Source: a virus. Taken from it: DNA of 23,092 bases. The translations under genes and the position numbers were made by a program. Below the pieces are notes generated by a model that made no database searches, was not told where the DNA came from, and worked only from the letters and a program-made list of their open reading frames with translations. The stretch covers positions 62,409 through 85,500 of IMG/VR virus record IMGVR_UViG_3300030085_003915, one strand, 5' to 3'. This document shows positions 8,235-9,988 of the stretch, in pieces. How positions within the stretch are numbered: the first letter of the stretch is position 1; every line of letters starts with the position of its first letter.

Positions 8235-9005
8235 CTATTTATTAAACAGGTCGTCAAAAGCATCACTTACATTAGTAGTGTTTGTTACCGCACTTTCTAA
8301 TTTTTTACTTGTTGATGCTGGTGCAGGATCTGGTGTTCCTTTTTCTTCTCCATCTTCACTTGGATTTAACCAATTTTGTAAAGCTTCTGCAAGTTCATCA
8401 TAACTTAGTTCGTTATAAACTTCACGGATGTCTTTTTGGTCATCAAGTAAAGTACTTAGAACTGCTTTATCTTCTGTAACTGGTGTTTGATTCGGTTTAA
8501 CTCGAATAGAAGTTTTTGGAAACGATGCTCCAGTTTCTTCAGCTGTTAAGAACTCAACCACTACATCACGACCATTTACGGGATCACTAATATCACCATA
8601 GTCAGGATCTGCTATAATTGAAAGAAGTTCTTGATAAACTGTTTTACCAAAACCCCAAAACTTAGCACCTTGATTTTCTTCACCACGAACTACAACAGGA
8701 GCAAAAGTTCTTAGTTTTGCTTCAAGTTTCTTACCCATTCTCCAATCTTCACGATTACCTGAAGATTTGAGTTTTTCGGCAAATTCTTCAATCGGGTCAG
8801 GACGACCAAATGAGATTGGTGAAAGATAAGACTTTCCACCTAAATCATAATGAAAGAAAAGTTCAATGAAAGGAACTTCTGAGTTTAGTTTGTAAGGTAA
8901 AAGACGGATTTGTGTCTTTCCTGGTTGAGGTTTCCACAAGTTTGTTGTTCTTGTGGTAGAGGTCTGTAACTGGTTTAGTCGCTTTCTTACTGCTTCAATA
9001 TCCAT
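8235..9005 (-). CDS. 32: Single-stranded DNA-binding protein, T4 gp32 type
   Basis: It coats single-stranded DNA at the fork and recruits replication and recombination proteins. The N-terminal basic segment (residues 1-20, MDIEAVRKRLNQLQTSTTRT) corresponds to the cooperative-binding B region. The OB-fold core includes IRLLPYKLNSEVPFIELFFH and SYLSPISFGRPDPIEEFAEK. The C-terminus is acidic and ends SDAFDDLFNK, the usual protein-interaction tail. At 256 aa it is a little shorter than T4 gp32 (301). The protein contains no cysteine at all, so the His-Cys3 zinc site of T4 gp32 is missing. A strong AAGGAGATAACAA ribosome site precedes the ATG. uvsX follows after 14 nt. Confidence 0.88.
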   Translation of the reverse strand: MDIEAVRKRLNQLQTSTTRTTNLWKPQPGKTQIRLLPYKLNSEVPFIELFFHYDLGGKSYLSPISFGRPDPIEEFAEKLKSSGNREDWRMGKKLEAKLRTFAPVVVRGEENQGAKFWGFGKTVYQELLSIIADPDYGDISDPVNGRDVVVEFLTAEETGASFPKTSIRVKPNQTPVTEDKAVLSTLLDDQKDIREVYNELSYDELAEALQNWLNPSEDGEEKGTPDPAPASTSKKLESAVTNTTNVSDAFDDLFNK

Positions 9006-9047: not shown

Positions 9048-9068
9048 TTGTACATACTTTCTGTACAA
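9048..9068 (-). promoter_or_regulatory. Hairpin in the gene 32 leader, possible translational operator
   Basis: A perfect 7-bp stem, TTGTACA/TGTACAA with a 7-nt loop, lies about 43 nt before the gene 32 start. Between it and the ribosome site is an almost G-free A/U-rich stretch. T4 gene 32 mRNA has a similar layout (a folded element followed by unstructured A/U-rich RNA) to which gp32 binds to shut off its own synthesis. That this leader works the same way is inference. Confidence 0.45.
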
Positions 9069-9110
9069 CTATAAGTATTGGTTTGTTCCAAAAACAACAC
9101 AATTTTTTTG

Positions 9111-9354: not shown

Positions 9355-9428
9355 AAAAAAAGGTGGTAAGTTTTATGATAATAGGATAAATCATTATCAG
9401 GGTATATGTAAAAAGACCTTACCACCTT
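9355..9428 (-). terminator. Strong intrinsic terminator ending the structured RNA
   Basis: Read on the minus strand, AAGGTGGTAAG (9418-9428) pairs perfectly over 11 bp with CTTACCACCTT (9360-9370), and a T-run (seven T, 9361-9355) follows at once. The 47-nt loop holds a second perfect hairpin, TGATAAT/ATTATCA (9376-9382 with 9393-9399). This is the most convincing terminator in the window and marks the 3' end of the upstream transcript. Confidence 0.8.
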
Positions 9429-9937
9429 AATAAATTGGAAAGTTAGGGAATACAAACACACCCATCTCATCTTTTAATTCTGTAAAGATACTCTCCAAAT
9501 TTCGGAAATATAGGGGATGTAGGATTAACGATTACCTACAACTTCAAGCTCAGATTTTTTCTCCCTTGTACCTAACACCTATCAGTTACGATAGTTCTCC
9601 TCAATGATGGTTAGTCATCGTCAAAGTGAGTACAACCTCTGTGCCATTACCTTAACTCTCTGAGTTTAGTTTCTTCGGTCATAAAGTGGGATTTCGGTTT
9701 TACCCTTACCCACAACAAGGTCTAAAGAATCGTGTTCTTTATATGTTCTTGAAGTACATTCTCTTAGTATTGTCATACGATATTTTCAACATTTAGCCGA
9801 ATACCAACCCACCACAGGTCTAAGAGCGGATTACCTTATGAGCTTCTAAAGGTTACTCATTATTCGGTCAATCCCATACAGAGTTAATTACTCTCCGTAC
9901 TTCTCATTTCCAAAATTGTCAAAAAACTTTTGTCTCG
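9355..9937 (-). ncRNA. Candidate freestanding structured RNA, about 580 nt
   Basis: No ORF of useful length exists here on either strand, yet the stretch is bounded by a promoter (9944-9972) and an intrinsic terminator (9355-9428). Local G+C is higher than in the flanking spacers. Many perfect hairpins are present. Examples are TAAAGAA/TTCTTTA around 9723-9741 (5-nt loop), TGTAGG/CCTACA at 9518-9540, CTATC/GATAG at 9579-9594, GTGGG/CCCAC at 9686-9713 and AGAGT/ACTCT at 9880-9894. Two 7-bp helices cross: CTCTTAG (9761-9767) with CTAAGAG (9820-9826), and CCGAATA (9797-9803) with TATTCGG (9861-9867), which would make a pseudoknot. Size and phage setting recall the large ornate RNAs ROOL and GOLLD, but I cannot match conserved blocks of either. 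I see no tmRNA tag frame, RNase P core or clear group I intron core. Confidence 0.6.
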
Positions 9938-9944
9938 AAAGACA
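9931..9944 (-). repeat. UUCG-loop hairpin at the start of the structured RNA
   Basis: On the minus strand TGTCT-TTCG-AGACA forms a 5-bp stem with a UUCG loop, a tetraloop context common in T4-type transcripts. It overlaps the expected transcription start of the large RNA, so it may belong either to that RNA or to read-through transcripts from upstream. Confidence 0.4.
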
Positions 9945-9972
9945 TAATATATATATACACAAAAAATCCCAA
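9944..9972 (-). promoter_or_regulatory. Candidate sigma70 promoter for the structured RNA
   Basis: On the minus strand TTGGGA (9967-9972) and TATTAT (9944-9949) are separated by exactly 17 nt. They match the bacterial consensus at four and five of six positions. The start would be near 9937. The -35 overlaps the small terminator-like palindrome at 9961-9988, so the end of one transcription unit and the start of the next seem to be fused. Confidence 0.5.
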
Positions 9973-9988
9973 ACGATTGGTTTTTTTT
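9961..9988. terminator. Small bidirectional terminator-like palindrome
   Basis: A run of six A, then CCAA-ACGA-TTGG within a near-palindrome, then eight T. Read in either direction it gives a short hairpin followed by a T-run. The GC stem is only 4 bp, extended by A-T pairs, so it should be a weak terminator. On the minus strand it would end transcripts from the 40-aa gene and the T-loop region. Confidence 0.45.

Follow-up and report, generated by a model that had tools for sequence, protein, structure and literature searches.

Genomic setting of the predicted RNA

The window, that is, the whole stretch of 23,092 nucleotides that we analyzed, covers the final 23 kb of an 85.5-kb virus record (IMGVR_UViG_3300030085_003915) from a marine virus of bacteria. 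Across the window, the minus strand encodes T4-like replication proteins: a ribonucleotide reductase, a DnaB-like helicase, an exonuclease, a UvsX-like recombinase, and a gp32-like single-strand DNA binding protein (SSB). Approximately 1 kb without an ORF of at least 50 aa lies between an 82-aa ORF (10601-10353) and a 73-aa ORF (9332-9111). A sequence-only reading had proposed a freestanding RNA gene in this gap. We found that positions 9355-9972 are overlapped by no ORF of at least 50 aa on either strand, as that reading had stated; a 44-aa ATG frame is present. The features of the locus are listed below in window coordinates.

9944..9973, minus strand: promoter-like element TTTGGGA ... TATATATATATTAT, directly upstream of the RNA
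9355..9943, minus strand: whole predicted RNA, from a 5' hairpin GTCTttcgAGAC (9943-9932) to the terminator, both ends being predicted from the sequence
9502..9929, minus strand: conserved tandem-manA unit, from an nhmmer alignment and from 97 unique full-length relatives
9760..9901, minus strand: manA core, copy 1, from the A3 structure, RF01745 matches in relatives, and model R1
9514..9714, minus strand: manA core, copy 2, the Rfam RF01745 match (66.6 bits, cut-off 55.2, E 3.4e-15)
9355..9428, minus strand: intrinsic terminator, stem 9428-9418/9370-9360 with a 47-nt loop, then T5
9068..9100 (approximate), minus strand: promoter-like element of the SSB gene, TTGTTTTT ... AATACTTATAG, placed by eye from 62 SSB loci
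8235..9005, minus strand: gp32-like SSB gene, the next large gene downstream (phrog_1192, E 3e-15; phrog_224, E 3.3e-12)

The manA family (RF01745), which the first reading had missed, was the sole Rfam family above its cut-off across the whole window. The likeness to ROOL and GOLLD suggested there found no support, as neither gave a match at E up to 10. ARAGORN and Rfam detected no tRNA or tmRNA in the region.

The conserved unit consists of two manA cores

We collected relatives starting from the SSB gene and from a manA pattern and compared them with the region. The relatives fell into two classes. The long form aligned over 9929-9502, whereas the short one measures about 170-180 nt and matched the Rfam part only. 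After searches with two further patterns, the long form comprised 141 full-length matches in IMG/VR, of which 97 were unique and 54 non-redundant (alignment A1). In these 97 relatives, the conserved unit of about 430 nt is composed of two manA cores back to back. When the window RNA and two divergent relatives were compared by blast with 50,697 phage records, no homologue emerged, so the tandem form is not known from any cultured phage of that collection. Among named phages, Microcystis phage Mel-JY01 has the closest SSB (46.4%); it had no RF01745 match. Three pattern matches were obtained in bacterial genomes; only one scored in model R1 (10.1 bits, E 0.42), and we attributed these to chance. 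A cyanobacterial host was unsupported, because none of the 19 tandem-type records searched, many of which are fragments, contained a psbA-type gene (PF00124).

We ran RF01745 on a set of 47 contigs and a separate set of 8, drawn from the 54 non-redundant tandem contigs or similar ones. In 17 of the 47, each half gave a match that covered model positions 1-192, while 28 matched in the 3' copy only and 2 in the 5' copy only; 29 of the 47 scored above the cut-off. In the separate set, both halves were matched in 3 of 8. The second matches in these 20 two-match contigs had E-values from 6e-12 to 8.7e-4, the latter in one contig, and lay under the cut-off. In the window, RF01745 scored copy 2 but not copy 1, and the assignment of copy 1 thus rests on homology to the two-match relatives. 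Its elements, all on the minus strand, are as follows.

9900-9876: hairpin
9868-9866/9835-9833: 3-bp helix
9860-9856/9842-9838: hairpin (copy 1 also has a GTGGTG hairpin loop)
9826-9821/9766-9761: multiloop helix
9777-9768: GACA-loop hairpin

In A1, copy 1 follows the manA plan in the order hairpin, GGGAU, UUGACCGAAUAA, hairpin, UAAGGUAAU, multiloop helix, and GTGGTG-loop hairpin. We then built a model (R1) from copy 1 alone, using 32 of the 54 non-redundant tandem copies, and ran it on 76 single-manA loci among the matches listed (541,870 bases). The 13 best matches, and 26 of 37 overall, fell on single manA; individual E-values were weak (best 0.0092), and 11 of the 37 lay elsewhere. The core features of manA were retained, as the 3-bp helix and the hairpin covaried in both copies and the GTGGTG loop was kept in copy 1. 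The same 3-bp helix changed from A-U to G-C in 18 of 54 sequences in copy 1 and in 25 of 54 in copy 2. By these comparisons, the region is predicted to encode an RNA with a core of two tandem manA motifs, an identification that we regard as close to certain.

Covariation supports a pseudoknotted structure joining the two copies

The terminal helix and pseudoknots of the predicted structure, together with an additional hairpin, lie on the minus strand at the following positions.

9905..9917: terminal helix P1, 5' strand, pairing with 9510-9498 (13 bp in the window, -11.9 kcal/mol)
9498..9510: terminal helix P1, 3' strand, pairing with 9917-9905
9871..9875: PK1, 5' strand GGGAU, in copy 1 (5 pairs, 54/54 paired)
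9514..9518: PK1, 3' strand AUCCC, at the end of copy 2, pairing with GGGAU
9659..9664: PK2, 5' strand, in the CUCAGA loop of copy 2 (6 pairs, 54/54 paired)
9549..9554: PK2, 3' strand UCUGAG (pair 9661-9552 significant, E 1.3e-4)
9433..9500: extra 3' hairpin TTTGGAGAGTATC ... TAACTTTCCAA, in close relatives, formed in the minimum free energy (MFE) structure

After setting a ceiling of 25% gaps, which left 437 of 517 columns, we tested for covarying pairs with our own R-scape-like script, not R-scape itself, against a null simulated along the tree. At E < 0.05 this identified 17 pairs, of which the 5' half contains eight and the 3' half nine; all were canonical in 48/52 to 54/54 sequences. In the full structure of 85 pairs, 96.0% of cells were paired vs 79.1% after shuffling. 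Both sides had changed in 60 of the 85 pairs (810 cells vs 230.6 shuffled), and sliding the partners lowered the score from 0.539 to 0.114 or less. Copy 1 alone, in the A3 structure, was 92.0% paired, with a covariation score of 0.633 vs 0.221 shuffled. The MFE of 9937-9355 was -146.8 kcal/mol (z -2.49). Compensatory changes were thus found throughout, the opposite of the conserved reading frames without such changes that would have spoken against the sequence-only proposal. Helix P7 (A1 columns 247-263) was weaker, with only 72.8% of cells paired, which we put down to misalignment. An inner 3-bp helix in P8 proved wrong and was left out of the 85 pairs.

The sequence-only reading had pointed to two crossing 7-bp helices. 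One of them, 9820-9826 with 9761-9767, is the multiloop helix of copy 1, in which three pairs covary (E 8.5e-3 to 2.4e-5). The other, 9861-9867 with 9797-9803, was paired in 56.1% of cells vs 56.4% after shuffling and was discarded.

The two copies are linked by P1 and PK1. For P1, the mean energy was -7.74 kcal/mol with own partners vs -5.88 kcal/mol with swapped ones, own partners being better in 41 of 54 sequences. Two pairs of PK1 had 9 and 7 both-side changes among the 54 sequences. In Rfam manA, a PK1-like pairing sits inside one copy, and RF01745 leaves those positions empty in copy 2. Since PK1 spans the copies and is not within one of them, we filed the RNA as a variant containing the manA domain and not as plain manA.

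The RNA is flanked by a promoter-like element and a terminator

A promoter TTGGGA-N17-TATTAT had been proposed at 9972-9944. As hexamers alone, these boxes amount to chance (9 sites in 1.7 kb vs 8.1 +/- 2.9 expected). The position is upheld by comparison: TTTGRG followed by TATATAT at 8-26 nt occurred upstream of the RNA in 63 of 94 relatives vs 38 of 2820 random stretches, and the motif so defined was missing in the other 31 copies. The perfect 11-bp terminator was confirmed (9428-9418 with 9370-9360), followed by T5, or T7 if the last two bases of the stem are counted. An equivalent hairpin followed the RNA in 92 of 97 relatives vs 3 of 97 shuffled sequences, and about 43 distinct pairs of arms occurred. 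Among the 92, the hairpins of L207 and L308 are doubtful, as they lie about 195-200 nt from the RNA. At gp32 loci the terminator came at a median of 5 nt past the tandem RNA.

A gp32-like SSB was encoded within 2.5 kb downstream in 87 of the 97 relatives, including 70 of the 80 found without using the SSB. With a distance limit, the terminator was present in 85 of the 87 SSB-linked copies and in 4 of the 10 others. A comparison by eye of 62 SSB loci, some with the RNA and some lacking it, showed that the 125 nt preceding the gene keep a pair of promoter-like blocks resembling TTGTATTT ... GATACTTATTA. Close relatives without the RNA retain its surroundings. L125 has the terminator immediately after the TATATATA element, and in L124 about 100 other nucleotides separate the two. 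The RNA was present in 18 and absent from 47 of the 65 SSB loci for which the upstream sequence exceeded 700 nt, which makes it a dispensable accessory.

At this locus the RNA looks like a freestanding gene, since a promoter-like element precedes it, a strong terminator follows it, and the SSB gene has a separate promoter-like element. The comparative evidence thus supports the original proposal here of a freestanding large structured RNA. In Weinberg et al. 2010 (PMC2864571), manA and wcaG are proposed as candidate riboswitches located in 5' UTRs. The tandem RNA of the window departs from that placement, as its terminator and the separate promoter-like element of gp32 intervene.

The ten tandem copies without an SSB found downstream were different. 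Two of them (L065 and L318) have too little sequence to tell. Six had no terminator (L056, L244, L284, L261, L207, and L308). Hsp20 genes followed three (L285, L207, and L308), and other ORFs, at +39 to +43, followed four. The Hsp20 genes and near ORFs place the RNA in a leader position there.

Comparison with single manA

Single-manA loci were collected with an exact pattern, so they are biased towards conserved members. Among the matches listed, 95 were near-full and 88 unique with enough flank; 39 were non-redundant, of which 37 were aligned (A2; L087 and L005 left out). Single manA started right after a sigma-70-like promoter (at least 10/12 matches) in 70 of the 88 among the matches listed vs 53 of 2441 random stretches; a less full version of the scan gave 68 of 88. 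It often continued straight into the following gene. An ORF could be scanned at 80 of these 88 loci, and the first one encoded gp32 in 18, transaldolase in 6, a phosphomannomutase-like protein in 5, Hsp20 in 3, PurS in 3, and mannose-6-phosphate isomerase in 2 (again among the matches listed). gp32 and Hsp20 are therefore common to single and tandem manA, which speaks for a link in cis or for common descent: either both forms descend from one arrangement or the domain serves those genes.

A tRNA closely followed single manA in 8 of 24 loci among the matches listed, which is not a rate, as the 24 were chosen by hand, partly for lacking a near gene or looking tRNA-like. In Synechococcus phage S-SSM7 (GU071098.1, L337), the manA match spans 151363-151563 and an annotated tRNA-Gly starts at 151564. 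The hypothetical protein SSSM7_180 (151441-151572) overlaps this match and may be a spurious gene.

The window RNA shares with manA (RF01745) the GACYGAAUAA ... UAAGGU core, the GTGGTG-loop hairpin, the 3-bp helix, the GGG/CCC pseudoknot, the marine T4-like phage setting, and neighbours of the gp32/Hsp20 type. It differs in having two cores and not one, an outer pseudoknot across both copies, its own terminator, and a following gp32 gene with its own promoter-like element, whereas single manA is reported as an element of 5' UTRs. In tandem riboswitches (PMC9481103), too, one domain is followed by a second, homologous one of the same class; their domains are separate, whereas the copies here share a pseudoknot, show no antiterminator signal, and are not known to bind a ligand. 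The main text of that review does not contain the term "manA". We found no tandem or freestanding manA in print in the main texts covered, which took in few subscription journals and included PMC2864571, PMC9964418, PMC9481103, PMC7657543, PMC12197685, PMC7779021, and PMC10665884. The same literature, as far as it was covered, names no ligand for manA, a riboswitch candidate since 2010, and the gene list of that year, as quoted from PMC2864571, does not mention gp32.

Possible function of the tandem RNA

We favor a reading, at a probability of about one half, in which the RNA has the identity given above and is in addition a discrete product acting in trans through two like binding sites. The ends of the unit are tied together by P1 and the one shared pseudoknot, with its 5' strand in copy 1 and its 3' strand in copy 2. 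The two putative sites, whose geometry the fold would fix, would capture a protein of phage or host origin, or a ligand, and the RNA would serve as a platform or a decoy. The one manA copy with which other phage transcripts begin would represent the same binding domain, attached to an mRNA or freed by tRNA processing. gp32 is one candidate partner, because the RNA adjoins gp32 in two phage groups. A discrete product is suggested by the tRNAs close behind 8 of the 24 chosen single-manA loci (among the matches listed) and abutting manA in S-SSM7, and a freestanding state by L125, which keeps the promoter-like element and terminator without the RNA between them. Action in trans is weakened by the tandem copies without an SSB, as most of these sit in a leader position and six of the ten have no terminator. 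Also against the favored reading count the gene classes shared with single manA, the dispensability of the RNA, the 31 of 94 copies without the promoter motif, and the 28 of 47 contigs in which RF01745 scored copy 2 only. A broader version, which we offer only tentatively, is that manA is mainly an independent phage RNA product and not a cis riboswitch, freed by terminators or by RNase P at abutting tRNAs. The duplicated, pseudoknot-fused form would then be a dedicated noncoding RNA gene with two sites, located next to gp32, and might act as a decoy or sensor for SSB or another replication-time factor.

The same leader-position copies, with Hsp20 and other genes behind them and no terminator, are what chiefly keeps in play a cis-acting leader, in which a tandem riboswitch-like element gates read-through of the terminator into the gp32 operon and the gp32-proximal promoter serves a different phase of infection. 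Attenuators typically show this same succession of promoter, conserved RNA, terminator, and gene, gp32 and Hsp20 lie behind both forms, and single manA begins at a sigma-70-like promoter (70/88 among the matches listed) and often runs into the gene. However, we detected no antiterminator pairing: the RNA paired with its own terminator arms at -7.54 kcal/mol and with swapped arms at -7.69 kcal/mol (89 loci). Attenuation by alternative pairing was rejected, as the left arms fit the RNA no better than arms from other phages. The terminator sequences also vary freely among relatives, and gp32 has its own promoter-like element in genomes with and without the RNA. We consider control of gp32 in cis unlikely. 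The promoter-like start shared by single and tandem forms, and the unrelated products that follow (gp32, transaldolase, Hsp20, PurS, and tRNAs), would also suit a 5'-terminal element acting on its own transcript whatever gene follows, either by protecting the end from host ribonucleases or by modifying RNA polymerase, as the put sites of phage HK022 do. With the terminator at a median of 5 nt past the tandem form at gp32 loci, there is no downstream message to protect or antiterminate, and we judge this distinctly improbable.

ROOL, GOLLD, and OLE RNAs are reported to form homo-oligomers (PMC12286853). Like ROOL and GOLLD, the window RNA is large, structured, freestanding, and found in phage DNA, and its size and setting would fit a cage- or multimer-forming RNA. 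Its cores are instead manA, and no covariance model of ROOL, GOLLD, or OLE matched, making such an RNA very improbable. That the region is non-functional intergenic DNA could be argued from the 47 of 65 related loci without the RNA; the compensatory changes throughout refute this, and we give it practically no weight.

The discrete two-core product that we favor would make the manA domain more than the on-mRNA switch of its database label, and the link to gp32, seen with single and tandem manA, offers a lead on function. T4 has a small pseudoknot in the leader of its gene 32, which also places a pseudoknotted RNA beside gp32; that of T4 lies inside the gp32 mRNA itself. A freestanding, terminated two-core RNA would be a natural test of whether the manA domain needs a gene in cis, and a discrete RNA for pull-down and structure solving. 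The shared pseudoknot exemplifies a route by which duplication and fusion of an RNA domain yield a larger RNA.

Other elements near the manA RNAs

In four relatives (L140, L139, L146, and L141), a structured-looking insert of about 140-150 nt (ACTCGGAGGATAACCGATGACATA ... GGGACGGCGGCGGG) lies between the end of manA and the terminator. The extra 3' domains of L140 and L141 had no convincing Rfam match. Just past single manA, a hairpin ACCTAAGATGCAACTC ... GAGTCGGGCAGATGGTC recurs in L100, L120, L099, L093, L060, L057, L066, and L110, sometimes without a T tract, and is perhaps not a plain terminator but a different element. Closer to the SSB gene, a hairpin (GTATCAAGGTTACACTTGAT or GGTTAC ... 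GTAACT) recurs 30-60 nt before the SSB start in L162, L163, L184, L188, and others; it could be an autoregulatory operator of the SSB.

Upstream of the RNA, at window positions 10125-10065 (minus strand), a hairpin resembling a tRNA T-arm, TGAGG-TTCGAAT-CCTTA, lies between complementary TTAATG and CATTAA. ARAGORN called no tRNA there, and the T-arm-like part recurs in L122, L124, L125, and L335. Next to it, at 10061-10004 (minus strand), a small module GATGTTAAGTCATCACTGC ... CTGG is enclosed by an outer stem. The module is also found in L138, L136, L233, L225, L291, L336, L124, L125, and L335, and its outer stem varies freely (GGGGAT/ATCCCC, CGAGTCGA/TCGACTCG, GGTTGA/TCAACC). It is perhaps a separate portable RNA motif, one without an Rfam match. 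In some phages it stands before the promoter, in others within the 5' hairpin of the RNA, and in L336 beside tRNA-like sequence.
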